A stretch of 64,000 nt of DNA from Mycobacterium dioxanotrophicus (lineage in GTDB: Bacteria > Actinomycetota > Actinomycetes > Mycobacteriales > Mycobacteriaceae). The stretch is from assembly GCF_002157835.1 (NCBI RefSeq), contig NZ_CP020809.1, positions 4,154,001 through 4,218,000 on the forward strand. The letters run 5' to 3'. Under the pieces are notes generated by a model, which ran no database searches, was not told the origin of the DNA, and saw nothing but the letters and a program-made list of their open reading frames with translations. The translations under genes and the position numbers were made by a program. Positions 18,046 through 48,105 of this stretch are shown piece by piece (the first letter of the stretch is position 1; every line of letters begins with the position of its first letter).

Positions 18046-18062
18046 ATCTCTAAAATAGAGAT
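18046..18062 (-). promoter_or_regulatory. 17-bp palindromic operator, PARP copy
   Basis: ATCTCTAAAATAGAGAT, which on the gene strand reads ATCTCTATTTTAGAGAT: 7-bp perfect arms around TTT. It lies 20 bp before the PARP ATG. One of six copies on the element. Confidence 0.75.
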
Positions 18063-18163
18063 TAGAGGACAGGTGTGACAAGCAGTCGCACACGACCGCC
18101 AACGCGGCTTGGTCGTGGCATTGGCAATCTGATGAGTCGGCGAGTGAAGCGTCCGATTAACGG

Positions 18164-18192
18164 CACTCGTGACGGCAGCTGCGTCACGAGTG
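18164..18192. repeat. Inverted repeat with TGACG core
   Basis: Arms CACTCGTGACG and CGTCACGAGTG, 11 bp each and perfect, separated by 7 bp. Each arm contains the TGACG core of the surrounding heptamer repeats. Confidence 0.7.
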
Positions 18193-18411
18193 CTGCACCG
18201 ATACGACCGGCCGCCGCGTCACCTGACGCAGTGACTTGACGCGGCTGAGCGCATTGCAGACGGACTCGTGACGCAGCTGCGTGATGCAGTACTGCATCAC
18301 GCGCACACGGAAAACGTTCCGCGAAGCTGTACCGCGTCACACGGTTCATGACGCACCGCTTCTGCATTGGTGACGCAATCACCGCGGGCACCGATGCGTC
18401 AGCGTGACGCA
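18180..18411. repeat. Cluster of TGACGCA heptamers
   Basis: Exact copies start at 18224, 18269, 18349, 18371 and 18405 (plus) and at 18180 and 18395 (minus), with several one-mismatch copies between. Roughly 0.03 exact copies would be expected by chance in this length. Five more lie in the adjacent DUF2637 gene. Confidence 0.75.
18279..18302. repeat. 24-bp perfect palindrome
   Basis: Half-site GCGTGATGCAGT followed directly by its reverse complement, without a spacer, in the middle of the TGACGCA cluster. No run of U follows, so a protein-binding site is more likely than a terminator. Confidence 0.75.
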
Positions 18412-18646
18412 AAGCAGTTCTTCTGGCGCCCCGGAGTTTCGTGGCTACCAAACAGCTGCGGAGAAAGGCGCCAGCGCCCAGCTGCGCCACCGATCGATGG
18501 ATGTGGAAACCGGCCGGGGTGTCGCATGCTGTCGCGAAAACCGGTAGGTCGGATGTGCGGATACTCCCCCCGCCGGCCACCCAGGGCGCGACGGCAGCTG
18601 GCGACTTCAACGGAGACTGCGAGCATTTAGCAACGTGATCATTGAG

Positions 18647-18656
18647 GGACGTGACA
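18647..18656 (+). repeat. Intergenic motif GGACGTGACA, copy 5
   Basis: Preceded by G, so it matches the GGGACGTGACA form. It points right, toward the DUF2637 gene about 580 bp downstream, with the 12-bp array between. Confidence 0.55.
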
Positions 18657-18887
18657 GCTCGCCATCGGTCCGCGCCAACCGCTGCCGCAGGTGCAGATAC
18701 AACCCCGGCTAGTCAAGGACGTCCCGCGAGCCGGCGACCTACATGCGCCCATCAGTCGGCGCGGAATTCGAGCCGCAACGGGTGCGCCTCCGCTCCGCTG
18801 ATCCCGCCGTGCGCGAGCACGTCGGCGGTTGGTTCGCAGCGGATGGGTAGGGGCAGTCAGCCGCCGCCAAAGACTTTGAGGGAAGCC

Positions 18888-18995
18888 GTATCTGGTGTCG
18901 TATCGGCATTTGTATCTACCTGTGTAGGTATCGCTGTATCGACCTCTGTAGCGAAGTCCGTAGTGTGCGCTGTAGCGCGGCCTGTAGCGCGGAGC
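18888..18995. repeat. 12-bp-periodic GTA array (nine units)
   Basis: GTA occurs at 18888, 18900, 18912, 18924, 18936, 18948, 18960, 18972 and 18984, exactly 12 bp apart, usually followed by TC or GC, while the other bases of each unit vary. The spacing is a multiple of three, so it also gives a V-x-x-x pattern on one strand and a Y-x-x-R pattern on the other. Neither frame has a convincing start, so I treat it as a DNA-level repeat with an open question about coding. Confidence 0.7.
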
Positions 18996-19237
18996 CGTCT
19001 TCGAACAAATACTCCTCACGCATGCGCGTTACGACATCGTGCGGCCTATAGGAGGCTCGCATCAGCCGGCCGACGATGCGAAAGGCCTGTAGCACTGTCG
19101 CTTATGGGTGTCACAGCTCGCAGTACCCCAAAAATCGCCCCTTGTCCGATGCGCGTCCTGCACCCGAATCGTGTTGCAACTTCTGGTTTCCTGTTCGCGG
19201 CCGCCGCACCCAGCGCACGGGCCAGAAAGGGAATGCG

Positions 19238-20269
19238 GTGACCCCCTACGAAATACACACACGCGTACGTCGCCTGTTGTGGGCGCTGCTGGCATTCGCC
19301 ACCACCGCTAGCCTGTCTGGAAACGTTGCTCGGACTGTGATCACGCACTCCGGTGCTGCCGCTGTCGGACCGATTGTCGCAGCCGCGCTGGCACCGTTCG
19401 CACTGTTGAGTCTCACTCACCTGCTTGGCTTGTGGTCGCATATCGCCGCACGTGGTCCGACCTACTGGTGCTTCCTTGTCGCGATCATTGCCCTGTCCGC
19501 CACGGCATTCAGGCTCTCGTTCGACGCACTGCGATCGCTAGCCATCGAGTACGGATACACGGCGAACGAGGCGGCTCTCTTCCCCGTGATGATCGATGGA
19601 ATCATCGCGGTCTGCACTCTCGGACTAGTCGTGCTGACACGTATCGAGATCGCCGCGATGGCACACCAAAGTGCCGCATCTGACGCACACACTGACGCAA
19701 CCAATGACGCACCTGACGCAGCACGCCACCTCACCTCTCGTCTGCGTGGCTGCATCACCACCGCGGTGCATCGCTTCAACCGGAGCGGGCCGGTGACGCA
19801 AGCCCGGCCCGCGGTGATGCAGCGAAACGACGCTCGTGAAGCACCTGTTGACGCGACGCATCGCGACGCAACGCCCGCCATCACACGTGACGGGGCGCAT
19901 CAGAACCAGACACCCGCAACGCTGCCACCACGTGGTCTTGAAGCACCCACATCCGCTTCGCCACTGTCCACGTCTGAACCGGCCGCCACTTCGGGCAGCG
20001 ACCAAACGAACCGCCCACAGCCAAAAAGCTCGACGTACCCCGCGCCCCGACGGTCGCAGCTGTCGCGGTCCAAACACGCCGCTTTGGCTCACCAGCTCGT
20101 CGACTCGAAGCGTGTCGCCGCTGCCCCCGACATGATCTGCGCCGTCCTGGATCACAACGCGGAAAAGAAGCCGAGTCGGGAGATTGCAGCTGAACTCGGT
20201 ACGTCACCGAGCAAGGTTCAGAGGATCCTTCGCGCAGCACGAGAAGCACAGCAGTCGGGCTTGGATTGA
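19238..20269 (+). CDS. DUF2637 (SpdB-like) membrane protein with C-terminal helix-turn-helix
   Basis: 343 aa from a GTG preceded by AGAAAGGGA. The first ~150 residues contain four membrane segments (LLWALLAFATTASLSGNVA; VGPIVAAALAPFALLSLTHLL; WCFLVAIIALSATAFRLSF; FPVMIDGIIAVCTLGLVVL) in the DUF2637 arrangement, found in spread proteins of Streptomyces conjugative plasmids. A polar linker follows, then a C-terminal HTH (PSREIAAELGTSPSKVQRIL, about 305-330). Likely role: DNA-binding membrane component in intramycelial or intercellular plasmid transfer. The linker coding sequence itself carries TGACGCA heptamers identical to those upstream. Confidence 0.75.
   Translation: MTPYEIHTRVRRLLWALLAFATTASLSGNVARTVITHSGAAAVGPIVAAALAPFALLSLTHLLGLWSHIAARGPTYWCFLVAIIALSATAFRLSFDALRSLAIEYGYTANEAALFPVMIDGIIAVCTLGLVVLTRIEIAAMAHQSAASDAHTDATNDAPDAARHLTSRLRGCITTAVHRFNRSGPVTQARPAVMQRNDAREAPVDATHRDATPAITRDGAHQNQTPATLPPRGLEAPTSASPLSTSEPAATSGSDQTNRPQPKSSTYPAPRRSQLSRSKHAALAHQLVDSKRVAAAPDMICAVLDHNAEKKPSREIAAELGTSPSKVQRILRAAREAQQSGLD
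19681..19800 (+). repeat. TGACGCA heptamers inside the DUF2637 gene
   Basis: Exact copies at 19681, 19693, 19705, 19714 and 19794, the first three spaced 12 bp apart and encoding DA-rich linker peptide (SDAHTDATNDAPDAA). Same heptamer as the non-coding cluster 1.3 kb upstream. Confidence 0.65.
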
Positions 20270-20517
20270 ACTTTGCTCGCCGCTTCCTGACCCGCGTTGG
20301 AATTGATAACAGCGAGCGATTCCGCGGCGCGGTCCGGCCGTTCTCGCTTCCCCGGCGTGTCGTGCTCGCTCCCTGGGCCAACACACCTCGCGCAGGCAAG
20401 GTGTCCCAGAAACGCATCCAGGTCCGACCGATCCGCGACTGCGATCCCAGATGCGCCTCCCCCGGACCAAGAAGGTGCGCGGCACCAGCCCCCGCCGCCG
20501 ACGGAAGGATCTAGTCA

Positions 20518-22539
20518 GTGAGCTACACCGCCGCGGATGTCATCGAGCTCGACGACATCCAGCACACCCGGATGCGGCCACAGGTCAACCTCGGTGCGAG
20601 GGTCTACCAGACCGCCGCTCGCGAGATCGTCGACAACGCCGTGGAAGAGGCAGGTGCTCACGGGTCCACGGTGTCGATCATCTTGAGATCCGACGGATCG
20701 TTCACCGTCACCGATGACGGCCGGGGCTTACCTGTTGACTCCGACCCGGCCGGCAAGAACGGCATCGTCAAAACACTGGGCACGGCGCGGTCAGGTGGGA
20801 AGTTCACCGCGCATGCCGACGCCGAGTCCACCGGTGCCGGCCTCAACGGGATCGGTGCTGCCGCCGCGGTGTTCATCTCCCGACGCACTGACGTCACCGT
20901 GTACCGCGCCGGGAAAACGTACAAGCAGAGCTTTGGTGGTGGGTATCCTGGCCGCTTCGCGGGTGACGGCTTCAATCCCGACGCCGACTTCACCCGCGAT
21001 GACACTCAGAAGCTGCGTGGACTGTCCAACGGCGAGCCCGCCGTGCACGGCACCTCTGTACGCATGCTGCTCGACCCGTCGGTGGCCCCCGACACCGCAC
21101 TCGACATCACCGAGGTTCTGCTGCGTGCCCACGCGGCGGTGCGCATGACCCAAAACGTGCGCCTGACCGTGATCGACGAAGGCTGGCCAGGCGGCCCCTT
21201 GCCCGCAGCTTTGTTGGGGTCATTCTCCGGGCCTTGGGGTACGGGCGCAGTGCTGGACTTCATGTGTGCCTGCGCGCAGACCCCCATACCCACGCTTCGG
21301 TCCTCTGTCGAAGGCCGCGGGGAGTATGTGACCGGTCGTGGGCCTACGCCGTTTCGCTGGTCGCTGACGGCCGGACCGGCCGAGCCCGCAACGGTGTCCT
21401 CCTTCTGCAACACCGTCTACACCGCTGATGGCGGATCGCATCTCAACGCGGCTGTAAAAGGACTGACCGAGGCCCTGGCGTCCCGCGCCGCGCGGCTGCG
21501 CGACCTCGGCCTGGCCAAAGGAGAGGATGGCCCCGAGCCGCAGGACTTCGCCGCGGTTACCGCACTGGCCGTTGACACCCGCGCGCCTGATGTCTCCTGG
21601 AACGGCCAAGACAAAACCGGAGTGTCGTCACGGTCTCTGAACACGGCAATGGCGACCGACGTGGCGCGCAGCACCGCGGTGTGGTCGGCCAACCCGGCGA
21701 ACACCGACACCGTGACCGTGTGGACGAAACTCGCTCTCGAAGCCGCACGCGCTCGCCGCAGTGCTGAGGGGGCCAAATCTCGGTCCCGTGCGGCATCTAA
21801 AGCCAAGGGGCTGGGGACGAATCTGTCACTGCCGCCAAAGCTGCTGCCCTGCCGTGAAACTGGCCGCGGTTCTGGAGCGGAACTGTTCATAGCAGAGGGT
21901 GACTCGGCTCTGGGCACCATCAAGGCCGCGCGGGACGCAACGTTCCAGGCAGCGTTCCCGCTCAAGGGCAAACCACCGAACGTCTACGGGTGGACGGTCG
22001 CAAAAGCTCGCGGTAAGGAGGAATTTCAGGCGATCGAGCGGATTCTCGACTGCGGGGTACGTGACCATTGCGACCCGGAGAAGTGCCGGTACGACAAGAT
22101 TCTTTTCGCCTCCGACGCCGATCCCGATGGGGGCAACATCAACTCGTCGCTGATCTCGATGTTCCTCGACTTCTACCGGCCTCTAGTCGAAGCCGGCATG
22201 GTCTACGTCACCCTTCCGCCGCTGTTCGTGGTCTCCGACAGCTCGCAGCGCATCTACTGCCAGGACGACGCCGAACGTGACGTCGCCGTAGCTCGATTGA
22301 GGTCAGGAGGCCGGTCGAGGGTCGAGGTGCAACGCAACAAAGGCCTCGGCGAGATGAACGCCGACGACTTCTGGAACACCGTGCTGGACCCAGGTCAGCG
22401 GACCGTTATTCAGGTACGCCCCGACGCCCTCGGCGGCGCACTGCACCACACCTTGTTCGGCGGGGCTCCTGAAGGCCGGCGCACGTGGATGGCCGACGCC
22501 GCTTCGCGCATTGATACCTCGTCCTTGGACCTGGATTAG
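20518..22539 (+). CDS. Type IIA topoisomerase, ATPase/TOPRIM subunit (GyrB/ParE-like)
   Basis: 673 aa. GHKL ATPase domain: N-box REIVDNAVEEA near residue 40, DDGRGLPVD near 67-75, TGAGLNGIGAAAAV near 105. Transducer domain follows. TOPRIM: IAEGDSALG near 457, LKGKPPNVYG near 483 and the acidic metal site SDADPDGGN near 531. C-terminal QRNKGLGEMNADDFW near 604. All main catalytic elements are present. The N-terminal strap is divergent from chromosomal GyrB. GTG start with GGAAGGA upstream. The partner subunit starts 12 bp after the stop. Likely role: resolving supercoils or catenanes of the large replicon; an atypical second type II topoisomerase is also known in M. smegmatis, and this pair may be related. 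Confidence 0.9.
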   Translation: MSYTAADVIELDDIQHTRMRPQVNLGARVYQTAAREIVDNAVEEAGAHGSTVSIILRSDGSFTVTDDGRGLPVDSDPAGKNGIVKTLGTARSGGKFTAHADAESTGAGLNGIGAAAAVFISRRTDVTVYRAGKTYKQSFGGGYPGRFAGDGFNPDADFTRDDTQKLRGLSNGEPAVHGTSVRMLLDPSVAPDTALDITEVLLRAHAAVRMTQNVRLTVIDEGWPGGPLPAALLGSFSGPWGTGAVLDFMCACAQTPIPTLRSSVEGRGEYVTGRGPTPFRWSLTAGPAEPATVSSFCNTVYTADGGSHLNAAVKGLTEALASRAARLRDLGLAKGEDGPEPQDFAAVTALAVDTRAPDVSWNGQDKTGVSSRSLNTAMATDVARSTAVWSANPANTDTVTVWTKLALEAARARRSAEGAKSRSRAASKAKGLGTNLSLPPKLLPCRETGRGSGAELFIAEGDSALGTIKAARDATFQAAFPLKGKPPNVYGWTVAKARGKEEFQAIERILDCGVRDHCDPEKCRYDKILFASDADPDGGNINSSLISMFLDFYRPLVEAGMVYVTLPPLFVVSDSSQRIYCQDDAERDVAVARLRSGGRSRVEVQRNKGLGEMNADDFWNTVLDPGQRTVIQVRPDALGGALHHTLFGGAPEGRRTWMADAASRIDTSSLDLD

Positions 22540-29660: not shown

Positions 29661-29840
29661 TTACTCCCGGAGTTCCTCCACGGCGCGGACCACGCGGCGA
29701 TGAATATCGGAGCCCTCGCTGATGGCCCGGCCCACGTGATTCATCACGAAGTACGACCCGTCCGATCGGCGGCTTGCCGTGTACCACTTGCGGCCGTCGA
29801 CCACTTCGTAGAGCTGGTCTTCGATCAGCCGCGCCTTCAC
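29661..29840 (-). CDS. Small basic hypothetical protein
   Basis: 59 aa, GTG start inside the 4-bp overlap with the stop of the upstream zinc-ribbon-like gene. VKARLIEDQLYEVVDGRKWYTA, then SYFVMNHVGRAIS. Good GC bias at third positions. Function unknown. Confidence 0.55.
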   Translation of the reverse strand: MKARLIEDQLYEVVDGRKWYTASRRSDGSYFVMNHVGRAISEGSDIHRRVVRAVEELRE

Positions 29841-30025
29841 GGTGCACCGTCCCGCAGGATGTTGTCGGCTTCGGCGGGGTCTTCAGGTTCGAATCCGGTG
29901 CAATAGCAGACGCGTTCGCGGCCGAACTCGACAACGAACGCAACGCACGACGAGGATGCTCCGATGTGCTCGTCATGTTCATGCGGACAATCGGCACACG
30001 TGCCGGTGGTGACCGGCGCCGTCAC
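29837..30025 (-). CDS. Small cysteine-rich (zinc-binding?) protein
   Basis: 62 aa, GTG with GGAGGATC upstream. Cysteines in CADCPHEHDEH, SSSC and CYC could form a zinc site with the histidines. Translationally coupled to the next gene. A copy of the 17-bp palindrome lies about 80 bp upstream of the start, so the pair is part of the shared regulon. Confidence 0.55.
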   Translation of the reverse strand: MTAPVTTGTCADCPHEHDEHIGASSSCVAFVVEFGRERVCYCTGFEPEDPAEADNILRDGAP

Positions 30026-30104: not shown

Positions 30105-30121
30105 ATCTCTATTTTAGATAC
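30105..30121 (-). promoter_or_regulatory. 17-bp palindromic operator, 30-kb copy (imperfect)
   Basis: ATCTCTATTTTAGATAC. The core is conserved; the right arm differs by two bases, but with flanking GT it forms GTATCT/AGATAC arms. About 80 bp before the start of the 29837-30025 gene. Confidence 0.6.
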
Positions 30122-32653: not shown

Positions 32654-33361
32654 TTAGAGTTCCCCAATCCAGTTGGGGCGGTGCCACTGTGGGTGTTCGT
32701 TGGTGCCGCCGCGAAGATTGACCGGCATGATGACACCGATGAAGGCGTCTCCGATCGTGACCAGGATGTTCTTCTGCGACTTGCCATGGACGTCGTCGCG
32801 CGTCACCAGGACCATCGGGGAGTCCTCGACGACGACTGCGAACTTGGCGATCTGCTTGGGGTTGAGGCCAGTCACCGCGCGCGGCACACCTTCGGTTGAC
32901 TCGGGGAAGAGGGCTTGCCAACGCGGGAAATAGACGTCAGTGTCCTCGGCGATCAGTGTCTCCCCGGAACTGAACACGAATTCGGCATAGTTGCCGGCCG
33001 GATTCACCGCTACAGTCCGCGTCCAGCGGTCACTTTTGAGCGTGCGGCTCAGCCGTATCAGTTCTTTGGCGTCGTCGAGCGAGACATTGAGCCCGAACAC
33101 CGGCCCCGGCTGGTTGTCGAACTGCGATGGCGACGGGATGTCACATTCCCTGCTGAGCTCAGTGATCCACTTTGCCTTCGAGACGCCCATGGCCTTCCCG
33201 TCGGTGGCCACCGAGAGCAGGTTTTCACCGAATGAGGTCAGATGAATCTGGTGGTAGCTCTTGGCCGCTCCGGTGTATGCGAGCACTTTGTCGTGCTCGG
33301 CGAATGCCATCGCCTGCTTGATGATCCGGTACAAGTCGGCAGTGAACAGAACATTGCTCAT
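32654..33361 (-). CDS. Sliding-clamp (DnaN)-like protein
   Basis: 235 aa. ENLLSVATDGKAMGV and VYFPRWQALFPES resemble clamp motifs (SxxATDxxRL and YPxxxxLFP), and IGDAFIGVIMPVNL near the C-terminus resembles the terminal IMPVRL strand of bacterial beta clamps. It is shorter than chromosomal DnaN (about 400 aa), closer to the size of phage T4 gp45 (228 aa). If it is a clamp, it would tether the element's DNA polymerase or, as in T4, coactivate a sigma factor. A 17-bp operator copy lies 57 bp upstream. Family call moderate. Confidence 0.5.
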   Translation of the reverse strand: MSNVLFTADLYRIIKQAMAFAEHDKVLAYTGAAKSYHQIHLTSFGENLLSVATDGKAMGVSKAKWITELSRECDIPSPSQFDNQPGPVFGLNVSLDDAKELIRLSRTLKSDRWTRTVAVNPAGNYAEFVFSSGETLIAEDTDVYFPRWQALFPESTEGVPRAVTGLNPKQIAKFAVVVEDSPMVLVTRDDVHGKSQKNILVTIGDAFIGVIMPVNLRGGTNEHPQWHRPNWIGEL

Positions 33362-33417: not shown

Positions 33418-33434
33418 TTCTCTATTTTAGAGAT
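33418..33434 (-). promoter_or_regulatory. 17-bp palindromic operator, clamp-gene copy
   Basis: TTCTCTATTTTAGAGAT: perfect TCTCTA/TAGAGA arms around TTT, upstream of the clamp-like gene and just after the helicase gene. Confidence 0.75.
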
Positions 33435-33494: not shown

Positions 33495-36400
33495 TCATCG
33501 CCGCACCTCGTCCAACGTGGACACTAATTCAAATGGCAGTCCGCTTCTCTCAGCAGCATGCTTGACCGAATACCCTTGATCTAAAAGTGATTTGGCCCAA
33601 GCCTCCGCTTCGGGTGCCGCCGACATAGCGCGGTCAACTCGCTTGTTTCGCCGTGTGGGCGATTTCTTCGTTCCCGGCTTCTTCGCTGGCGGTACCGGGG
33701 GCGGGGTCAAGTCGCCGTCCAGCGACTCGAACCAGACATGGACGAGTTTGGCCTGGGCGATGGTTATGGGCTTGCCGCTGATCGGTGTGTTGGCCATACT
33801 GCTGTAACCGAGCGCTGCGGTCAGCTGCTGGCGTGTCCAACCCGCCGCTGCGGCCTGGTTGAGCAGCATCCAGGTGGGCACCGGGTCGTCGACCTGCGCG
33901 TTGTAGTCACGGATACCTTGACGGCCCCGGGACCGCTGCACTGTCCGCACCGCGCGGACGTCGTCCGCGGTGAGGTCAAGCAGTATGCGGCGATGTAGTT
34001 TGCTGCACCGGGGCTCCGCTGCCCGCCCAACGAGCAGCGACACGAGACCTCGCGAAACACATGCAGCCGCGGCGATCGCACCGATCGTGAACGTGGCATC
34101 AGATCGGTCCTTGCTTGCCTCCAACGCAAGCAAGCCTTGGAGGTGTTCACGGACGTCCTGCGCGGACACCCAATCAGCGCGGTACGTCGCTCGCCGCTCT
34201 GATGCGGCGCGTCGCATGTAACTGCGGTTCTCGGTGACGCAGACAACGCAGCGGCAACCCTGGTGAAATCCACGGGTGCTGTGGTCGGTGACGCCCGGCT
34301 TTGGACCTGTGATCATGTCGGTGCCGCCCTGCCCGGGTGAACCCCAGGTCCATCCAGTGAATCGTTCGATAGCGCTATCCTGCGGCCGAAAGTCTCCGCG
34401 CTTGCGCCGAGACCGGGTGGCCGCACACCACTGGTACAGCTCGAAACGCTTGCCCTCGACGTCCTCGACGGTCCCAATCGGCATCCTCGCCAGTGTGCCG
34501 TGCTTGGCGATGTACTGATTGCACGCCATTTCCGCTATCTGCCAATGAGTTTCCGATGGCTTCCACAGGAAGCGCCGTTCCCCTCTGCGGCCGGTCGGTG
34601 TCGATGCCAGTAGGACCGATTCCAGGATCGATGGCAGTGTCCCGCAGATCTTGCGGCGCCGAACTGTTCCGAGCCAAGCGTCGAGGTCTATGTCATCCTC
34701 GATGTGCCCCGGTGGGACATCGGCGTGACCTTCCCACGCGGCGAAGGAGCGAAATGCCGCCACGCCGGCTTGATCGACCTCTGACAACGGATACCAGTCC
34801 CAGCCCGGCATCTGCCGAAGTGCCTCGGTGATCCAGCTGTCCAGCTCGTTGTCCCAGTACTTGCACAGCTGCGTCGCCACCCACAACCGCAGTGGACGGT
34901 TCAGTCCGTCAACATATCCCGTGAAAATCGACTCACCGGGTGCCGTGTCATCGAGGCTTCCCCGATCAGTGCAAACAGCGCGGAGCCGGTCCAGGGTTCG
35001 CTCGTCGGAGGCCTCTTTCGCATCCCATCGCCAGCCGTTGACCGATTCAAGCCTCTTGCGGCGGTCTTCGTCGAGCATCCCATCACGGAATAGAATGCGC
35101 TGCAGCATGATCCACTGTCCAAACTCGTTAGACTGTGTGGTAATCCTCGCGGCTGATCCCAGCCTGTCCGTCTCTTCACAGAGCCGCTGAAAGTTACGCT
35201 CCCACACTGACGAAGTGCGCTGCAGCAGGCGCGTGACTATCGTCCCGGGCTGTTCACCGGTGACTTCCAACCAGTCCAGAGCGTCCGCATTAATGCAACT
35301 GTTGGTACCGGTGCGGCGTGCCCTGTCGATGTCGTGACCGATCCGCGAGTCATGGGCCCGCAGCCCTTGCAGAACCCGCCACACGTGGGTGTAGGAGGAC
35401 GTGGACAGCTGGTCCTGATCATCAGCTTCGGGATCGAGAATCAGCGGAATGACGATGGTGCCGTGGGATTTTCCGGGATGCTTACGCAAGGCTCGACCAA
35501 TGGCCTGGATGATTCCCACCTGACTGGTGCGTGGATCGGCGAACACGACGGCGTCGACTGCCGGCACGTCGATGCCCTCACGCAGGCACTGCGACGAGGC
35601 AACCACAGTGATCCCATCCGTCCGTGTATCGGCGAGTCTGGCCAGGATCTTCACGCGCTCTGAGTCGTGCATTGAACCGTCAACGGCGAGCGCACGGATA
35701 GGTGTGCCGTCCACATCGATGAGTGCGCTGACACGTTCAGCGAATGCCCGTGCAGAATCGACTCGATTGTGAAAAGTCAGGATGCGCCGCACACCGTACC
35801 GGCGCGCTACATCGAGCAGCGCGGCCAACGCAGCTCGCTCTCCGGTCGCTTCCCCTGCTGGTTCGGTTGTGGTGGTCACCAAGACGCGGTAGTCGGCCAA
35901 CAATCCAGCGCTGACGGCTTCCCCCACATTCAGGGTGTATGCAATCTCCCCGAACAACTCAGTGTCATCCATGGATCTTGCGACCGCACTCGCTCCGGAC
36001 AAATCGTCGATGGCCTCAGCGCCGCCACGGCTTTTCAGGACTATGGGCGTTGCCGTTGCGAATACTCGGCGCCGCGCCAGCACACCGCGCGGATCGAGCA
36101 CTGGGAGAAATGCAGCGTTGGTGCGGCCGGCAAGGTGGTGAGCCTCGTCAGCGACCACCAGATCCAGGGGTCGTCCGCTGCGCGTCAAGCCGATCCCGTC
36201 AGCGACCACTTGCGAGGAATGGTAAGTGGACACCACGAGAGACATGGACGCACCGGATGTCTCAACACGCTCAAGGAACCCGGCAACCACCTCACTTCGG
36301 GTGGTTACGTTGCCGTCTTGGTCGTGTTGCCCTTCGAACGGGTCGATTCCGTCAACGCCGATTTCCGCGCGCCCGGCATCCGTTGTCGGATCTGAACATA

Positions 36401-36671
36401 CGGCCAGTACGCGCACGCCAGGTATGACGCGTCGCCACTCGGCGATGGTCTGTGCCACCAACGCAATGCTGGGCGTGAACACCGCGACCGTGCGGGCCCC
36501 GACTTCGAGCGCTTGCCACGGTCCGATGAGAGTCTTACCGGTACCGCATGCCATCCGCAGCTGCGCTCGTTCCCCCGCATCGGCTAACCCGTCGAGCGCG
36601 GCACGTTGATGCGGACGCGGTTGCGGCACAGCATCACTGATCGGTGCATGCTCCTGCAGTAGCGCAGTCAT
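33495..36671 (-). CDS. DEAH-box helicase with helicase-associated domains
   Basis: 1058 aa. SF2 core: Walker A ACGTGKT near 42, DEAH at about 175, QAIGRALRKHPGK as motif VI near 395. After the core come helicase-associated repeats (FAAWEGHADVPPGHIEDDIDLDAWLG and related, about 600-790), found in actinobacterial DEAH helicases of plasmids and defence islands. A CRCVVC cysteine cluster near 815 and several HTH-like segments follow toward the C-terminus. The ATG overlaps the stop of the upstream sigma-factor fragment by 4 bp, so the two are translationally coupled. Role: remodelling or replication of the element's DNA. Confidence 0.8.
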   Translation of the reverse strand: MTALLQEHAPISDAVPQPRPHQRAALDGLADAGERAQLRMACGTGKTLIGPWQALEVGARTVAVFTPSIALVAQTIAEWRRVIPGVRVLAVCSDPTTDAGRAEIGVDGIDPFEGQHDQDGNVTTRSEVVAGFLERVETSGASMSLVVSTYHSSQVVADGIGLTRSGRPLDLVVADEAHHLAGRTNAAFLPVLDPRGVLARRRVFATATPIVLKSRGGAEAIDDLSGASAVARSMDDTELFGEIAYTLNVGEAVSAGLLADYRVLVTTTTEPAGEATGERAALAALLDVARRYGVRRILTFHNRVDSARAFAERVSALIDVDGTPIRALAVDGSMHDSERVKILARLADTRTDGITVVASSQCLREGIDVPAVDAVVFADPRTSQVGIIQAIGRALRKHPGKSHGTIVIPLILDPEADDQDQLSTSSYTHVWRVLQGLRAHDSRIGHDIDRARRTGTNSCINADALDWLEVTGEQPGTIVTRLLQRTSSVWERNFQRLCEETDRLGSAARITTQSNEFGQWIMLQRILFRDGMLDEDRRKRLESVNGWRWDAKEASDERTLDRLRAVCTDRGSLDDTAPGESIFTGYVDGLNRPLRLWVATQLCKYWDNELDSWITEALRQMPGWDWYPLSEVDQAGVAAFRSFAAWEGHADVPPGHIEDDIDLDAWLGTVRRRKICGTLPSILESVLLASTPTGRRGERRFLWKPSETHWQIAEMACNQYIAKHGTLARMPIGTVEDVEGKRFELYQWCAATRSRRKRGDFRPQDSAIERFTGWTWGSPGQGGTDMITGPKPGVTDHSTRGFHQGCRCVVCVTENRSYMRRAASERRATYRADWVSAQDVREHLQGLLALEASKDRSDATFTIGAIAAAACVSRGLVSLLVGRAAEPRCSKLHRRILLDLTADDVRAVRTVQRSRGRQGIRDYNAQVDDPVPTWMLLNQAAAAGWTRQQLTAALGYSSMANTPISGKPITIAQAKLVHVWFESLDGDLTPPPVPPAKKPGTKKSPTRRNKRVDRAMSAAPEAEAWAKSLLDQGYSVKHAAERSGLPFELVSTLDEVRR

Positions 36672-37100
36672 GCCGCCACCTGCTGCTCGCCACGAAGTTT
36701 GGCCATCGCCTTTTGAATGAGCCCGCGGACCTTGACGACGGGGAGCCGATACTTGTCGGCAACATCTGTCACCGCCTGTGGCTCTCCCGTATCCAGACCG
36801 AACACCTCGGAAATGACTCGCCGCTCGCGATGAGAGAGCCGCTCCATCAACTGCGAAAGCTGCTGGGCGGCAGTGTCATGGGCATCATCCCGGTCGCCAC
36901 AGTCTCGACCTGCCAGGAGGTCGAGCAGGCTGGAGGAGCCATCTCGACCTCCCCCGCTAAGCGGTGCGTCCAGCGAGACTGCACGGGACATCATGGCGTG
37001 CATCTGAGCGATGCCCATTTCGCTGATACCCATCGCAGCTGCGAGATCGGCATCGTTGGGCGTCCTACCCCGAATTTTTCGCGGAATGTTGCCTTTGGCG
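36668..37100 (-). pseudogene. Sigma-70-family factor, C-terminal fragment (regions 3-4)
   Basis: In-frame continuation from about 37100 reads GNIPRKIRGRTPNDADLAAAMGIS, then AVSLDAPLSG (region 3), followed by region 4: LSHRERRVISEVFGLDTGEPQAVTDVADKYRLPVVKVRGLIQKAMAKLR. The matching N-terminal half lies on the far side of the IS1380-type element, same strand. An internal ATG at 37033 might still give a region-4-only peptide, which could preserve translation into the coupled helicase gene. The exact break point is uncertain. Confidence 0.75.
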
Positions 37101-38680
37101 GTGTGTAGATAAGCGAAAGTGCCTGTCCTGCAAGGGATAATTGGACTTCTCTACGGTTCAAAGATCCTGACGGGAAGGCACTTCGCAGGTGAAGAATATC
37201 GCGGCCGCATCGCGGGTGAAAGTGTCGGCCGACGGCCATGGCGTCGTGTCGCATGCCGGGATGGGCCTGCTACGTGAACTGGCCGATCGGACCGGGTTAT
37301 CGGCGCAGGTCACGGCTGCTTTGGCCGACACCTACCGCGGGCCGTGGGTGTATGCGCCCGGAGACGTGTTCGCTGATCTGGCGGCTGCGGTTGCTGACGG
37401 GGCGGACTGCATCGACGGGGTCGGCCAGCTCTGCGGCGACCGTGAGCACGCCTTCGGTGCGAAAGCCTCGACGACCACGATGTGGCGGCTGGTCGATGAG
37501 CGCATCGACGCCGCACACCTACCCGCGGTGCGGGCGGCCCGAGCGGGCGCGCGGGCGGCGGCCTGGGCCGCCGGTGCCGCCCCCGCTCCGGGTGACTGGC
37601 TGCACATCGACATCGACGCCACCCTGGTGATCGATCACTCCGACAACAAAGGCGGTGCGACGCCGACCTGGAAGAAGTCGTTCGGGCACCATCCGCTGCT
37701 GGCATTTCTGGACCGCCCCGAGATCGCCGGCGGGGAAGCCCTGGCCGGGCTGCTACGCACCGGCAACGCCGGCTCCAACACCGCCAGCGACCACGTCATC
37801 GTGCTGGCCCAAGCGCTGGCAGCGCTGCCCGCGGCCTGGCGACCCGACCCCAGGGCTGGCGATCATCCCGACAAGCCCAAGGTGCTGGTGCGCTGCGACA
37901 CCGCCGGAGCCACCCACACCTTCGCCGACGCCTGCCGGGCCGCCGGGGTGGGGTTCTCCTTCGGTTACCCCGTCGACTGGCGCGTCCAAGACGCGGTGGA
38001 CACCCTCAACCTCGCCGAGGGCTGGTACCCGGCGATCGGCACCGCCGGCGGTCTCCGCGACGGCGCCTGGATCGCCGAAGCCACCACCCTGGTCAACCTG
38101 TCGTCGTGGCCACCGGGCACGCGGCTGATCCTGCGCAAAGAAAGGCCGCATCCGGGCGCCCAGCTGCGATTCACCGACGCCGACGGGATGCGGATCACAG
38201 CGTTCATCACCGACACACCACCCGGCGTCGTGTCAGGACAGGTCGCCGGCCTGGAACTGCGCCACCGTCAGCACGCCCGCGTCGAAGACCGCATCCGCGA
38301 ACTCAAAGCCACCGGCCTGCGCAACCTGCCCTGCCACTCATTTTGGGCCAACGCCGCATGGCTGGAAATCGCCCTCACCGCCGCCGACCTGGTCACCTGG
38401 TGCCGACTCATCGGATTCCGCACCCACCCGGGCCTGGCCCGCACCGAGATCGCCACCTTCCGCTACCGGGTCCTCCACGTCGCCGCCCGCATCACCCGCA
38501 GCGCCCGCCAAACATGCCTACGTCTCGACGCCACCTGGCGATGGGCCGCCCAGATCGCGACCGCCTGGCAGCACATCCGCACCGCCTTCGACTGATCCAC
38601 AGCTCATCTGATCCAACTGACGAAAGGCCCACTGGCCCTGGGAAAGCCCGCCCAGCCCGGCGATAAGGGACCACCCCGCC
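37101..38680 (+). mobile_element. IS1380-family insertion sequence
   Basis: One transposase gene on the plus strand, inserted in a minus-strand sigma gene. I could not identify convincing terminal inverted repeats, so the ends are estimates based on where sigma-factor similarity stops. A hairpin AAGTGCC/GGCACTT precedes the transposase start (about 37115-37182). Confidence 0.7.
37189..38595 (+). CDS. IS1380-family transposase
   Basis: 468 aa, GTG start preceded by CTTCGCAGG. N-terminal LRELADRTGLSAQVTAALADTYRGPWVYAPGDVFADLAAAVADGADCIDGVGQL and TTMWRLVDERID are typical of the family; the RNase H-like DDE core begins at LHIDIDATLVIDHSDNKGGA, then WKKSFGHHPLLAFLD. The C-terminal HRQHARVEDRIRELKATGLRNLPCHSFWANAAWLEIAL matches the last catalytic block. 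Full length and apparently intact, so transposition may be recent. Confidence 0.88.
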   Translation: MKNIAAASRVKVSADGHGVVSHAGMGLLRELADRTGLSAQVTAALADTYRGPWVYAPGDVFADLAAAVADGADCIDGVGQLCGDREHAFGAKASTTTMWRLVDERIDAAHLPAVRAARAGARAAAWAAGAAPAPGDWLHIDIDATLVIDHSDNKGGATPTWKKSFGHHPLLAFLDRPEIAGGEALAGLLRTGNAGSNTASDHVIVLAQALAALPAAWRPDPRAGDHPDKPKVLVRCDTAGATHTFADACRAAGVGFSFGYPVDWRVQDAVDTLNLAEGWYPAIGTAGGLRDGAWIAEATTLVNLSSWPPGTRLILRKERPHPGAQLRFTDADGMRITAFITDTPPGVVSGQVAGLELRHRQHARVEDRIRELKATGLRNLPCHSFWANAAWLEIALTAADLVTWCRLIGFRTHPGLARTEIATFRYRVLHVAARITRSARQTCLRLDATWRWAAQIATAWQHIRTAFD

Positions 38681-42612: not shown

Positions 42613-42629
42613 ATCTCTATTTTAGAGAT
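42613..42629 (-). promoter_or_regulatory. 17-bp palindromic operator, rIIA-like operon copy
   Basis: ATCTCTATTTTAGAGAT, perfect 7-bp arms, identical to the PARP copy on the gene strand, 28 bp before the rIIA-like start. Confidence 0.78.
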
Positions 42630-42685
42630 TACACACAGCCACCGACAAGTTCGCGTTATGCGATAAAAGCGGCGTTAGTCAGCCA

Positions 42686-43880: not shown

Positions 43881-43897
43881 TTCTCTATTTTAGAGAT
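43881..43897 (+). promoter_or_regulatory. 17-bp palindromic operator, 44-kb copy
   Basis: TTCTCTATTTTAGAGAT, in the 293-bp spacer (43725-44017) before a run of small genes; the first start lies 120 bp downstream. Confidence 0.72.
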
Positions 43898-44017
43898 TTA
43901 CGAAGAGCGGTCACCAACCCTGTCGCGAGACCCACAGAACCCCGAACCGCCTCCACAGTTGCCACGGTCGATCACCGCTCCAACGCCGTCAACCAGAACA
44001 GACAAGGAATGTCACCT

Positions 44018-44266
44018 GTGTCCGCATCAACGCTAAAGCCCGCACTCCCCGACTGGGCACAAGTTCTCCCACAGCATCTGGCCCCCGGGACTCTGGAGGG
44101 CCGAAGTGTGATCTTCTACCGCCACATTGACGGGGTGTTCTGGGACTCCGCGTGCCGGATGTGCCGGGGGCGCACCGCTGTCAACGAGCTCATGCCCAAT
44201 CACCGCCCCTCTCCAGCATGTCGCTCCGGCGGCCACCACCACTGCACCTGCGACGCCTGCTTCTGA
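44018..44266 (+). CDS. Cysteine/histidine-rich small protein
   Basis: 82 aa from a GTG at 44018, favoured over the ATG at 44009 because AAGGA then has normal spacing. CRMCRG and a terminal CRSGGHHHCTCDACF block carry enough Cys/His for one or two zinc sites. First gene after a 17-bp operator. Confidence 0.55.
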   Translation: MSASTLKPALPDWAQVLPQHLAPGTLEGRSVIFYRHIDGVFWDSACRMCRGRTAVNELMPNHRPSPACRSGGHHHCTCDACF

Positions 44267-45561: not shown

Positions 45562-45586
45562 CACTCCGGCTACAGTTTCACCCCGA

Positions 45587-47788
45587 TCAGCCCGCGCGGC
45601 CGTACTCGTCGACACGGTTCCCCTGCTGGTCGACGAGCTGGTATTCCTGCCACGGTTCCAGCTCTGGGGCGCGGCCGCCACGCAAATGCTCGACAGTGAC
45701 CGGGATCGGTGTCCGCGGCAGGTCACCGCGGCACTGTCGCAGCCGGATCGCGGTACGAACGCTCTTGTCCGACACCAGGAACCCGCCATGGTTGACGGGG
45801 AAGTCGCGCTGTATCCATGCCCCGCCCTCGATGCGGCACCAACGCTGCTTGGCCGCTTCGATCGCCAACAACGCTCCGCGTTCGATCATGCGCAGCACGG
45901 TTCGTTCACTGACGCCGAGGTGGTTGGCCGTGTCATTGACAGTCTGGTTGTAGCCACCGAACCGCTTATGTTCGATCGTTCGATACGGCCGGGCCGTCTG
46001 CCGGTAGCGCGCCAAACCGGGGCCGTAAACCTCGCTTTCATGCAATCGATGGTTCCCCGACCCGAAGCGCACCGCGTGCAAGGTTCCGATCCTGACCAGA
46101 TAGCGAACCTCAGATGCGGGTCGCTCGACGATCTGGGCGGCCTGGTCAAAGGTGAGGTATTCCGCGGTGACGTTGCGCCGTTGACGCGGATCACCGATCC
46201 TCAGTTTCGGGCACATCCGCGCCACCTTGGCACTGAACACCCCTGCCGCAACCAGGTCGACGGTGCGGATCCGAAGATCGCGGCCGCGGCGCTGGGCCGG
46301 CAGCAGCCCTTCGGCGACAAGCGCCTCGATGACATTCGGTCGGGTGCCGGCGAACGCAGCTGCGCTGGAACGCGTGTGCAGCGCCAATGCGGGGTCGATG
46401 TCGGGTTGGCTCCACTTCAGCCACGCCAGGAAGTTCTCCATGTGCGCCTCGGTCAGATTCGCCCCCCGTTCAGCAGCAGCGCGACGGCGGTCGCGAGCCT
46501 CGGCGGCGCGTGCCGGTTTGGCGGCCTGGGCGGCAACGAGCGCATCCACCTCATGGCGCCGCAACCACAGCTTGGACCCGGAGGTTACTATTTCGAGCTT
46601 GCCAGCAGCGGCACGGCGGCGCAGGGTGCGTACGGTGACACCGATCTTGTCGGCGGCCATCGCGATCGGCACCAGCAGTGGGTCTTTCATCAAACCGCCG
46701 GGCGGAAGGCCCCGAGACTTGCGGACCTTGTCGCTGCGCAGCTGGAGCACAGCGAACAAGTCGTCTTGACAGACCCGCGTCGTCCCAGCGATGGTCCAGG
46801 TGATGGCCCCTCCGCGCTGCAACGCCTTGCGGGTCCCCGAGGCGCTGATCCCCATCATCGAGGCGGCATCGGCCATAGTGAAGCATTGCAGGCCTGACAC
46901 CTGGTCGCGGATCATTTTGTTTTTGCGCCGAAGCAGGCCGGGAGCGACACCATTGGTCCGGCGGCGGTTCTCGGCGATCGCCGCGCGGACTTCGGCATCG
47001 ATGCGATACGCCTCCTCGAAATAGATGCGGCGCAGCGAGGATTTCTCGTAAGGAATCCCCCACACCATCAGGATGTCTTCGGGGATCATCGCCCGTTCAC
47101 GCCGGCCCACGCAGCGCCACAACAGGTGACGGGGCTTCACATCGGGGTTGGCTTTGGCCAACTTGCGCCACCATCGCCACATCGTTTGTGGGTGCACCCG
47201 CAGTGTTCGTGCCACCTGCTCGACTGGCACACCGCGGTCGAGTGCTCCGCGAGGTCGGTCTGTGGCCCACCCGCAACCAAGTTCGGCGGGCAGGCCGGCT
47301 GCCAAGATGTTGCCCATCGCCCACACATAGTCCGACCGGATACGGATCGTTCCGAACATCCGCAGCGCGGGCAGGCCGCCACCCCGGGCCATGCGGCGGA
47401 CCCGAGCCATCCCCAGTCCCAGCTCTGCCGCTGCCTCGGCGAGGGTCAGCATGCGGACCGGCTGGTTGTAACTCGATGGGTAGAAACCCCGGTTGGGGTT
47501 CGGGGCGCCCAGCAATGCGTCGATCTCACCGGCGCGGTCGGCCGGCAGCGGTTCGGCATCGAGGTCGCGTCCGGGGTAGAGAAGTTCGGTGACCAGCTCC
47601 CGGTCGTCGACTGACGGCGGAGCGGGCACCTCGAGCCGCGTCTGCTGCTCTTGTTGGTCCTCGTATACCGCCATCGCAGTCATGGCCTGCAGCATCATCT
47701 GGCGCTCTTCGGCGGTCAGGCCTTCGCACGCGGAACGGAGCCACTCGGGCAGCTCGTCGAAGTCGCACTGGGTGTAATCCGCGGCCAT
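45587..47788 (-). CDS. Multi-helix-turn-helix DNA-binding protein (candidate replication/partition protein)
   Basis: 733 aa from MAADYTQCDF (an upstream in-frame ATG at 47869 gives a basic 27-residue leader; no good ribosome site decides). About seven HTH units, mostly of the MerR/excisionase type, can be read at roughly residues 114-160 (LTLAEAAAELGLGMARVRRM), 190-215 (VEQVARTLRVHPQTMWRW), 303-348 (MADAASMMGISASGTRKAL), 373-418 (IAMAADKIGVTVRTLRRRA), 470-515, 545-590 (TFDQAAQIVERPASEVRYLV) and 615-660 (NDTANHLGVSERTVLRMI). Such a protein would contact many sites at once, as replication initiators or DNA-bridging factors do. No polymerase, helicase or nuclease motif is visible. The putative origin lies just upstream. 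Confidence 0.65.
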   Translation of the reverse strand: MAADYTQCDFDELPEWLRSACEGLTAEERQMMLQAMTAMAVYEDQQEQQTRLEVPAPPSVDDRELVTELLYPGRDLDAEPLPADRAGEIDALLGAPNPNRGFYPSSYNQPVRMLTLAEAAAELGLGMARVRRMARGGGLPALRMFGTIRIRSDYVWAMGNILAAGLPAELGCGWATDRPRGALDRGVPVEQVARTLRVHPQTMWRWWRKLAKANPDVKPRHLLWRCVGRRERAMIPEDILMVWGIPYEKSSLRRIYFEEAYRIDAEVRAAIAENRRRTNGVAPGLLRRKNKMIRDQVSGLQCFTMADAASMMGISASGTRKALQRGGAITWTIAGTTRVCQDDLFAVLQLRSDKVRKSRGLPPGGLMKDPLLVPIAMAADKIGVTVRTLRRRAAAGKLEIVTSGSKLWLRRHEVDALVAAQAAKPARAAEARDRRRAAAERGANLTEAHMENFLAWLKWSQPDIDPALALHTRSSAAAFAGTRPNVIEALVAEGLLPAQRRGRDLRIRTVDLVAAGVFSAKVARMCPKLRIGDPRQRRNVTAEYLTFDQAAQIVERPASEVRYLVRIGTLHAVRFGSGNHRLHESEVYGPGLARYRQTARPYRTIEHKRFGGYNQTVNDTANHLGVSERTVLRMIERGALLAIEAAKQRWCRIEGGAWIQRDFPVNHGGFLVSDKSVRTAIRLRQCRGDLPRTPIPVTVEHLRGGRAPELEPWQEYQLVDQQGNRVDEYGRAG

Positions 47789-47963
47789 GGCCGCCAACGT
47801 AATGGCCACACGCGGATGCGCTTTCCCACGACGCGGGGCACGCCGAGCGGCCGACGGAGAGCACGACATGCTCGAACAAAATTTCGATACACCGGTCTCG
47901 TGTCCGGTTCCTGGTTTCCGGCTGGATTTGTCGGATGTAAATTGTCCCGGCCGCGCTGAACCT

Positions 47964-48010
47964 CCCCGTGTTTCGATGTAAATTACCCGTTTGACCTGCG
48001 GTAACTGTCA
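47964..48010. repeat. Long inverted repeat, left arm
   Basis: 47 bp. Reverse complement matches 48259-48305 with about six mismatches; the longest exact block is TGACAGTTACCGCAGGTCAA. Confidence 0.78.
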
Positions 48011-48088
48011 CCGATCCGGTCAATTCACCGCTCGGCTGGGTAAACACGCATCTGTCGTGGCAAGTGGGGGTGCCTCCGGCAGCGGATA

Positions 48089-48105
48089 TTCTCTGTTTCA
48101 GAGAG
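48089..48105. promoter_or_regulatory. 17-bp palindromic operator, origin copy (variant)
   Basis: TTCTCTGTTTCAGAGAG: TCTCTG/CAGAGA arms around TTT, a compensated base change at the inner position, which argues for selection on the dyad. Confidence 0.65.

Follow-up and report, generated by a model that had tools for sequence, protein, structure and literature searches.

A 17-bp palindrome marks a putative element-wide regulon on a 278-kb integrated element of Mycobacterium dioxanotrophicus

The window (the whole stretch of DNA that was analysed, 64,000 nucleotides from contig NZ_CP020809.1 of M. dioxanotrophicus) lies within a 278-kb element that is integrated in the chromosome at a tRNA-Val gene and possesses a tyrosine integrase. 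The plasmid setting envisaged in a preliminary description of this DNA has thus been replaced by that of an integrated chromosomal element. Further cargo of the element includes an EccC-like type VII secretion protein (1409 aa; EccCa 471 bits and EccCb 293 bits, both under the curated cut-offs), an array of 31 tRNA genes (L037:1306-11881) and a tmRNA gene; within the window, no Rfam family was found at gathering score. The window contains genes for a WGR-PARP protein, rIIA- and rIIB-like proteins, a helicase and a protein with a sigma-70 region 4, along with copies of a 17-bp palindrome with the consensus of about WTCTCTRWWWYAGAGAW (Table 1).

Table 1. Palindromic sites, promoter elements, genes and repeat in the window (window coordinates)
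Feature	Position	Strand	Remarks
Putative operator of the WGR-PARP gene, exact palindrome	18046..18062	-	20 bp before ATG
PARP promoter elements, TTGTCA (18076-18081) - 11 nt - TAATCT (18059-18064)	18059..18081	-	TAATCT overlaps the operator edge
WGR and PARP catalytic domain protein, 434 aa	16721..18025	-	PF00644 1.7e-21; PF05406 6.6e-7
Putative operator, 2 mismatches	30105..30121	-	
62-aa Cys-rich ORF, GTG start, possible target of the 30105 site	29837..30025	-	79 bp downstream; skipped by gene caller; weak assignment
Putative operator of the 235-aa gene	33418..33434	-	56 bp upstream; kept in G123
235-aa protein, earlier 'clamp-like'	32654..33361	-	PHROGs family named RusA-like Holliday junction resolvase, 1.2e-13
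Putative operator of rIIA, exact palindrome	42613..42629	-	27 bp upstream; kept in G123, G037, G377
rIIA promoter elements, TTGTCG (42643-42648) - 11 nt - TAATCT (42626-42631)	42626..42648	-	
rIIA-like protein, 690 aa	40513..42585	-	phrog_612 2.2e-55
rIIB-like protein, 349 aa	39420..40469	-	phrog_609 4e-39; no Pfam match
121-aa protein, sigma-70 region 4 only	36668..37033	-	PF04545 2.5e-7
SF2 helicase with helicase-associated repeats	33495..36671	-	
Putative operator, TA in front	43881..43897	+	
85-aa Cys/His-rich ORF, possible target of the 43881 site	44009..44266	+	111 bp downstream; skipped by gene caller; weak assignment
Operator-like 17-mer TTCTCTGTTTCAGAGAG inside dispersed repeat	48089..48105	+	
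Dispersed repeat of ~0.5 kb, present in four copies on the element	47845..48345	+	other copies around C1:4084439, 4126444, 4319249

Searched at up to three mismatches, ATCTCTATTTTAGAGAT is present in the window at 18046, 30105, 33418, 42613 and 43881, while 100 shuffles gave a mean of 0.00 matches. The preliminary description had listed six copies; five of them stand, but the one at 48089 carries four mismatches to ATCTCTATTTTAGAGAT and is picked up by a looser pattern only. With 18 matches in the window against 15.7 expected, that looser pattern (CTCTN7AGAG, one mismatch) shows no enrichment, and half-site patterns alone are therefore uninformative. The 48089 copy is not independent either. 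An identical 17-mer is present in all four element copies of the repeat of about 0.5 kb, and its dyad is degraded in three repeat copies of G156, so that the paired CTG/CAG change previously put forward as proof of a dyad is weak evidence; we dropped this copy both as an independent operator and as an argument for the dyad.

A motif search of the whole replicon, proposed at the outset as a check, bore out the restriction of the palindrome to the element. In the 8.08-Mb genome, WTCTCTATTTTAGAGAT at up to three mismatches matches 22 distinct places, 20 of them in the 278-kb element (four being copies within the dispersed repeat) and two elsewhere, with a single match for the reversed control. 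The exact 13-bp core occurs seven times, always within C1:4103315-4345580 (reversed control 0). A weight matrix, built from 16 own sites and hence circular in its fit to these but not to relatives, found 17 sites in the element (reversed-matrix count 0). None of the 17 is located inside a called gene (76% of the element is called coding), as had been noticed before for the copies in the window. No called gene starts within 250 bp of own sites 4184105 (window 30105), 4197881 (window 43881) and 4223799, and at site 4077038 two gene calls disagree. The palindrome is not a product of chance.

With regard to the genes behind the window sites, the distance of 20 bp to the PARP gene agrees with that reported earlier; those to rIIA and to the 235-aa gene had been given as 28 and 57 bp, one more than we find. 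The latter gene product had been called clamp-like, a label without support: Pfam gave no match, the PDB nothing below E 0.45, and PHROGs a match to a family named RusA-like resolvase. Cys-rich and Cys/His-rich reading frames do follow the sites at 30105 and 43881, for which a zinc-ribbon-like pair and a Cys/His-rich operon had been proposed, but both assignments are weak because the gene caller picked neither ORF. The site at 42613 precedes rIIA, as described; however, the supposed rIIA/rIIB/sigma/helicase operon is split by an opposite-strand ORF, IS-like by eye, between rIIA/rIIB and the sigma and helicase genes, and control of the latter two from this site is accordingly doubtful.

Inspection of 59 sites disclosed common promoter anatomy. 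TA stands directly before the site in 48 of the 59 (background 1.4%), and TTGTC, with at most one mismatch, is positioned at -19 in 17 of the 59, other offsets reaching a mean of 0.8 and a maximum of 4. This box is 11 nt from a TA-containing hexamer (48/59) and 18 nt from a central TANNNT (41/59). A function of the TTGTC box as a usual -35 element was rejected, the spacing to the TA-containing hexamer being only 11 nt. Four operator-less plasmids have [AT]TGTCG - 11 nt - TAGAAT before rIIA, and because these palindrome-less plasmids keep TANNNT at 11 nt, the hexamer at that distance is favoured over the central TANNNT as the candidate -10 element. Whole-sequence counts of the promoter form are mixed, and wide use of that form beyond the sites is not shown: the strict form, counted without a control, occurs 12 times in W03, six times in W01 and four times in the own sequence, and a looser form, set against its reversed control, gave among others 18 v 6 (W03), 12 v 8 (W01), 8 v 9 (own), 8 v 1 (G123_C1), 2 v 5 (G123_C2) and 7 v 10 (G037_C11).

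Within the genus, 16 of 396 genomes, counting the own one, match the palindrome at no more than one mismatch, and five of them have 10-17 matches (controls 0). The sites recur at orthologous promoters, with protein identities of 45-77% in distant relatives. A site precedes the orthologues of own site-bearing genes in 14 of 14 cases in the near relative G123, in 6 of 6 in G156, in 4 of 9 in G037 and, on partial contigs, in 4 of 8 in G377; the Tsukamurella plasmids W05 and W06 contribute 3 of 4 and 1 of 2, respectively. For orthologues of other genes, the corresponding figures are 0/203 (G123), 2/115 (G156), 1/119 (G037), 0/57 (G377), 2/45 (W05) and 0/73 (W06). The site before the PARP orthologue is found in G123, G037, G377, G156 and W06; the counterpart of the 30105 site in G123 has TA in front and is followed, at a distance of 24 bp, by a 46-aa ORF. 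Four plasmids with an rIIA of about 50% identity and without an XRE protein of the family described below have a single poor site match. Since the sites are located at promoters, are kept at orthologous promoters and, of 22 near-matches, fall elsewhere in the genome only twice, the comparison supports the view that the palindrome marks an element-specific regulon that would include DNA-metabolism, PARP and rII genes and is essentially absent from the remaining chromosome. The observation made in the preliminary description is thereby confirmed, and its interpretation is partly supported.

Two small XRE genes of the element, g122 (C1:4124452-4124781) and g125 (C1:4127959-4128462), encode candidate binders. 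Their helix-turn-helix domains were recognized as PF01381 (g122, 2.5e-10; 109 aa, a single HTH by Pfam) and PF13560 (g125, 5e-8), and the family, about 90-170 aa in length with one member of 346 aa, shares the segment VLSRIExGxRPCR with the invariant pattern V-S..E-G-R..R..E. Paralogues with this common recognition segment number two here and three each in G037 and G377. The palindrome is situated 29 bp before g122 in the own element and in G123, 17 bp before the family gene in G156 and before one G037 paralogue, and 23 bp before that in W05. Only a weak site lies upstream of g125, none precedes the C11/C33 paralogues of G037/G377, and the best-hit g122 orthologues of these two genomes have no site within 180 bp. 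A search with the single sequence of g122 has no discriminating power, since it picks up ordinary XREs in 384 of 396 genomes; a family profile has, scoring above 90 bits in 8 of 44 genomes or records, among them six of the eight genomes with at least two sites. Its eight rows all derive from the site-bearing genomes G000, G156, G037 and G298, so that the independent hits are G123, G377, G214, G176 and W05 only. Among 24 hand-picked genomes without sites (at up to one mismatch), two have a family member: G176, with no such palindrome near its XRE gene, and G214, chosen for its g122 match, with TCTC half-sites and one GTCTC-n7-GAGAC palindrome near it. Similarity of these XREs to described repressors is weak and mostly confined to the HTH domain; g122 matched seven PDB sequences (best 1.3e-4) and, at HTH level, 38 phage records (best 3e-4), and the profile gave 25 pattern matches in viral contigs with 0 confirmed relatives.

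The XRE-family search led to Tsukamurella W05, the only plasmid record in which both XREs have relatives. This amounts to a test of prediction, as the plasmid was chosen by its XRE relatives and scanned for sites afterwards: W05 and its PARP-bearing sister plasmid W06 from the same isolate have 17 + 12 = 29 sites (reversed control 0), which precede XRE, PARP, WGR-ligase and tmRNA genes. W06, with its 12 sites, encodes no XRE of the family (best score 16.8 bits). There are 11 further plasmid records matching g122; the site counts cover W05 and W06 alone. Predicted site and candidate regulator family hence occur together in Mycobacteriaceae and Tsukamurellaceae.

We regard the palindrome as the probable operator of an element-wide regulon bound by the element-encoded small XRE (Cro/CI-type) family, a reading to which we assign a probability of roughly 0.75. 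The operator would cover the -10 and start of its promoters, of which many read TTGTCG - 11 nt - TANNNT; the small XRE proteins would bind it as dimers, repress their own gene and keep the DNA-repair, replication, translation and rII-type genes of the element silent until an inducing signal relieves them. What is seen in the sequence are the sites, their promoter position, their conservation at orthologous promoters and the co-occurrence with XREs in another bacterial family; repression is proposed from the overlap with promoters, and binding, dimerisation and the inducing signal are inferred as well. The single repressor of the preliminary description fares well as far as an element DNA-binding protein is suggested by co-occurrence, but with two to three paralogues it may be a set.

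An unlikely alternative accepts the operator but has a different element-encoded DNA-binding protein occupy it, with g122 and g125 merely linked; this could be g333, which is XRE-like but longer, the GntR-like g181 or a protein that escaped recognition. Another protein may indeed bind the palindrome in G313 (seven matrix sites in the 60 kb examined; best family score 49 bits) and G353 (four in 50 kb; 46 bits), because sites are present there without a g122-family XRE, and relatives of g333 also occur in G123, G156, G037 and G377. However, it was the g122-family search that led to the Tsukamurella sites, and the operator precedes one family XRE gene each in the own element, G123, G156, G037 and W05, whereas the 150 bp upstream of g333 are free of sites and, of the relatives compared, G123 and G156 alone gave tblastn matches to g181.

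Slightly less probable still is a positive role, the palindrome serving an activator, or a switch between activation and repression, on promoters without a good -35. TTGTC at one fixed place, too near the TA-containing hexamer for a usual -35, could call for extra help. Yet repressors classically act where the palindrome lies, across the -10 and the predicted start, and the rIIA promoter elements persist in four plasmids that have no palindrome, so that the promoter seems not to need it.

KorA and KorB are global regulators of broad-host plasmids with replicon-wide operators, which the dispersed palindromes resemble in outline. Nevertheless, a partition or KorB-type (ParB family) site set is very improbable, as the sites lie at promoters and neither the element nor W05 or W06 matches ParB_N (PF02195), a domain that G000 shows just twice, once at C1:6367 and once on contig C3. 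Least credible is chance or a transposon relic that spread AT-rich palindromes inside repeats: four copies do lie in the dispersed repeat, and single exact matches, one per stretch, occur among those listed in many unrelated genomes and viral contigs (listings made up mostly of unrelated records and uninformative on breadth), but this origin is refuted for the promoter sites, with shuffle and reversed controls at 0 or 1, conservation at orthologous promoters, and 39 analysed promoter sites whose flanks share little besides the promoter elements.

A more far-reaching model, which we offer tentatively and consider less likely than its negation, is a lysogeny-like switch in giant conjugation-type elements of Mycobacteriales. 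Two antagonistic, CI/Cro-like XRE paralogues acting on common dispersed operators would switch the element from silence to a phage-like programme (tmRNA, tRNAs, DNA ligase, PARP, helicases, rII) and back, and the same operators might confer superinfection immunity between elements. The 0.5-kb repeat, which sits between the two XRE genes in the own element, G123 and G156, could then belong to the switch or serve as an origin.

The proposed XRE operator system has several counterparts. XRE (Cro/CI-like) systems of temperate phages and ICEs consist of a small HTH repressor, palindromic operators over promoters and an operator at its own promoter. A comparable layout, with a putative repressor and putative operators and again in an integrated mobile element, is seen here, but the compact switch is replaced by 17 sites at separate promoters over 278 kb and two or more XRE paralogues. 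Many sites across an actinobacterial mobile genome are also a feature of the immunity system of Cluster A mycobacteriophages, in which one repressor, a monomer with two DNA-binding domains, is reported to have more than 20 sites (operators and stoperators) across the genome, some of them in promoters and others in short gaps between genes (PMC9283540). Those sites are asymmetric, oriented 13-mers, unlike the 17-bp palindrome at promoters. The giant mycobacterial tRNA-array plasmids with type VII/IV secretion (PMC12803027) share an array of about 30 tRNA genes, an EccC-type protein and several helicases with the present element, but are linear free replicons without TraA relaxase, whereas the present element is integrated at tRNA-Val and has a tyrosine integrase; that text contains 0 occurrences of 'repressor', 'promoter' or 'palindrom'. 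By description rather than sequence, the element also resembles ICEMyc226, a T7SS-bearing integrative element of Mycolicibacterium (388 kb, 64% G+C) which has a DDE-type integrase in place of a tyrosine integrase (PMC7478629). Passages of PMC7478629, PMC12803027, PMC8190616 and PMC9283540 make no mention of the control of these elements, the operator is absent from titles and abstract openings of the literature found on such elements and regulators, and literature text containing the 13-bp core came only from three papers with unrelated titles.

If the XRE reading is true, it would provide a concrete operator and a candidate regulator for elements of ~260-300 kb with tRNA arrays and type VII secretion, and a ready list of co-regulated genes, several without assigned function, for guilt-by-regulation tests. 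A bacterial PARP, a WGR-type DNA ligase, rIIA/rIIB and an element-borne tmRNA would be tied to one programme. ARAGORN reported no tmRNA in the matching stretch L096 of G123, where an overlapping 42-aa frame and the site are kept; in the own element and in W05, the predicted 5' end of the tmRNA follows the palindrome at a distance of 4-5 nt.

The 17-bp AT-rich palindrome ATCTCTATTTTAGAGAT, or near variants of it with up to three mismatches, is present in the window at positions 18046, 30105, 33418, 42613 and 43881 (100 shuffles gave a mean of 0.00), and the preliminary description was right on this observation. For the copy that it placed at 48089, a similar 17-mer exists, but this differs at four positions, is found with a looser pattern only, and is part of a dispersed repeat of about 0.5 kb present in four copies. 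The motif search that had been proposed as a check was run on the whole genome, 8.08 Mb in five contigs. It found the 13-bp core seven times, each within C1:4103315-4345580 of the chromosome (reversed pattern: 0), and WTCTCTATTTTAGAGAT, at up to three mismatches, at 22 distinct places. Twenty of these lie in the element described below, four of them being the repeat copies; the remaining two, C1:871508 and 4668975, are chromosomal but outside it (reversed control: 1). A weight matrix built from 16 promoter sites of this genome and their reverse complements scored 17 sites within the element; the fetched flanks had none, and the reversed matrix gave no match. The claim that no copy lies inside a gene stood as well: none of the 17 matrix sites falls in a called gene (binomial P 2e-11; called coding 76%). 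The reading of the sites as an element-wide regulon holds up well.

The window, C1:4154001-4218000, is part of an integrated mobile element. The idea of a free plasmid had to be abandoned, since C1:3994001-4418000 contains a 278-kb chromosomal block with a G+C content of about 64% versus about 67%, a 44-bp direct repeat at its borders, the right copy of which runs into the 3' end of a tRNA-Val gene, and a tyrosine integrase adjoining the right end. Among the 314 genes called (by a simple custom codon-score caller, which misses genes) are those for an EccC-like protein scoring under the curated cut-offs, a GyrB-like protein, a Prim-Pol, SF2 and UvrD-type helicases, rIIA, rIIB, a WGR-PARP and a WGR-DNA ligase; the element also has a tRNA cluster of 31 genes and encodes a tmRNA. 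The giant linear plasmids of M. avium, in the parts of their description available to us, carry a tRNA array, type VII/IV secretion genes and several helicases, and on this described gene content they look like free-living kin of the element (PMC12803027). Between rIIB and the genes for the sigma-region-4 protein and the helicase lies a 468-aa ORF (window 37189-38595) that runs on the opposite strand and looks IS-like by eye; another ORF, at C1:4303048-4304454, matches it in length and N-terminus.

Features of the element and their coordinates
Feature	Coordinates	Remarks
Perfect 44-bp direct repeat bounding the element	C1:4072419-4072462 and 4350687-4350730	outside the window
WGR domain + ATP-dependent DNA ligase domain protein	C1:4107810-4108883	operator 26 bp upstream
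g122, XRE protein, 109 aa	C1:4124452-4124781	site 29 bp upstream; near tRNA array
g125, XRE protein, 167 aa	C1:4127959-4128462	weak site 35 bp upstream; near tRNA array
Element-borne tmRNA	C1:4131916-4132340	Rfam RF00023, 86.8 bits; tag ANDNDSLVSDADLAEIEAFANGDVLVCA
Dispersed repeat of ~0.5 kb	window 47845-48345	contains the 48089 copy; long imperfect inverted arms

The genes behind the sites encode the WGR-PARP, the WGR-ligase, a UvrD-type helicase, rIIA, an XRE regulator, the tmRNA, a DUF3310 protein, a 235-aa protein and small proteins of unknown function; for the sites at 4184105, 4197881 and 4223799, no called gene start was found within 250 bp. When the element and eight relatives are taken together, three of 98 sites fall within a called gene. 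One of them (G123 C2:33878) precedes the counterpart of a 42-aa frame that overlaps our tmRNA, and a second (G377 C33:29405) lies 23 bp before a PARP orthologue detected by tblastn, so that the gene call over it is doubtful; the third (G037 C5:11228, score 17.8) is probably due to chance.

Matches with at most one mismatch occur in 16 of 396 same-genus genomes, the present one included (control: 0 in all). Five of these (our own, G037, G123, G156 and G377) have 10-17 matches, G313 and G353 three each, G298 two, and eight genomes one each. We compared orthologous promoters, accepting own sites within 150 bp and orthologue sites within 180 bp. Where our gene has a site, so does the orthologue in 14/14 cases in G123, 4/9 in G037, 4/8 in G377, 6/6 in G156, and, on the Tsukamurella plasmids 13 and 8, in 3/4 and 1/2; where our gene lacks one, the respective values are 0/203, 1/119, 0/57, 2/115, 2/45 and 0/73. 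The site is therefore kept at orthologous promoters (Fisher P 7e-9 for G156, 6e-5 for G037, 0.002 for plasmid 13 and 0.03 for plasmid 8). Four plasmids whose rIIA is 50-53% identical to ours have no match at up to three mismatches, save one poor three-mismatch case in W02; for two of them, W03 and W01, the corresponding values are 0/3 and 0/1 for genes with a site and 0/31 and 0/23 for genes without.

Fifty-nine sites from our genome, G037, G156 and both Tsukamurella plasmids were given the orientation of whichever called gene starts nearest to them, within 60 bp. TA precedes the palindrome directly in 48 of them (background 1.4%), and TTGTC, with one mismatch allowed, begins at -19 in 17; at the other offsets it averages 0.8 and never exceeds 4. 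In the four palindrome-free plasmids rIIA is preceded by [AT]TGTCG - 11 nt - TAGAAT, and TTGTC[AG]-11-TANNNT occurs 12 times in W03 and six times in W01, several of these ahead of genes, with looser counts mixed relative to the control. Most simply read, one lineage has placed an operator over the -10 and start region of a conserved promoter; from its position, a site so placed would be expected to repress. A 121-aa protein with sigma-70 region 4 only (window 36668-37033) is possibly an element-specific transcription factor for TTGTCG promoters. Downstream of several TTGTCGG-N-TANNNT promoters in W03 and W01 comes a conserved leader like GGTGcAGGGCAaGCCAatcgcGGCgGGCCCACC, which might be another operator or form an RNA hairpin.

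The preliminary description had postulated a single repressor. A candidate XRE regulator with a site before its own gene was found, but there are two paralogues, g122 and g125. In an alignment, the segment V[LMV]SRIExGxRPCRxxE recurs in their relatives from G123, G156, G037 and G377, and G298 has a variant form of it; we take this segment to cover the recognition helix of the XRE fold. A profile built from eight family members, all from site-bearing genomes, scored above 90 bits in eight of 44 genomes or records among the matches listed (our own, G037, G123, G156, G377, G298, G176 and G214), the next best match reaching 62 bits and the rest less than 50. By class, again among the matches listed, members occur in 6/8 genomes with two or more sites, 0/8 with one site, 2/24 hand-picked site-free genomes and 0/4 plasmids. 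G214, one of the site-free genomes, had been chosen for its g122 match, and GTCTCTA half-sites and one GTCTC-n7-GAGAC palindrome lie upstream of its XRE gene; no similar half-site or palindrome was seen in the region before that of G176.

The link between the XRE family and the palindrome finds its strongest single support in Tsukamurella. Among 72,556 plasmid records, g125 matched one and g122 twelve, the same record being on top (45-49% identity): T. tyrosinosolvens NCTC13231 plasmid 13 (NZ_LR134455.1). The other eleven records match g122 alone (E 3e-6 to 1e-4). For the PARP gene, plasmid 8 from this isolate (NZ_LR134450.1) gave the best plasmid match, at 72.5%. Neither plasmid had entered the motif definition, and the site count covered these two. 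Plasmid 13 has 17 matrix sites and plasmid 8 has 12 (reversed control: 0), none inside called genes. Sites are placed 23 bp ahead of an XRE start, 15 bp ahead of the PARP start, 36 bp ahead of the start of the WGR-ligase (kept with its site on plasmid 13 at 65% identity) and just before a tmRNA. Plasmid 13 has genes for two members of the family, at 92 and 74 bits; none was found on plasmid 8 (best 16.8 bits), where control would hence need to act in trans.

The main evidence against the XRE proteins as binders is that no family member was found in G313 and G353, which have seven and four matrix sites. These sites, of nearly the same palindrome, lie on separate elements, and near those of G313 are several small genes resembling excisionase-like HTH genes by eye. 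With fair confidence, we regard the XRE family as the regulator of the palindrome sites, likely acting as a repressor. To the overall explanation, an XRE operator network across the element, we assign a probability of about three in four, a figure tempered by the site-bearing origin of all profile members and by the tmRNA spacing. The operator ends 4 nt before the predicted tmRNA end in our element and 5 nt before it on plasmid 13, whose tmRNA tag resembles ours, and this ruler rests on these two elements because ARAGORN found no tmRNA in stretch L096 of G123, though the 42-aa frame and the site are kept there.

So read, XRE operators would form a network that extends across a giant actinobacterial element. 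The operator was not found mentioned in the titles, abstract openings and passages searched, and may still be published. The nearest multi-site mycobacterial system met, in the passages available, is that of the cluster A phage stoperators, which are asymmetric and bound by a monomer (PMC9283540), in contrast to the palindrome here.

All four copies of the 0.5-kb repeat in our element carry an identical 17-mer. Four copies are present in G123 and three diverged ones, with a degraded palindrome, in G156; weak matches without the palindrome occur in G037 (two), G377 (one) and plasmid 8 (one, partial). An origin, a small RNA gene and a MITE-like element are candidates for its nature. In our genome, G123 and G156, one copy sits between both XRE genes, where it may mark a control region.
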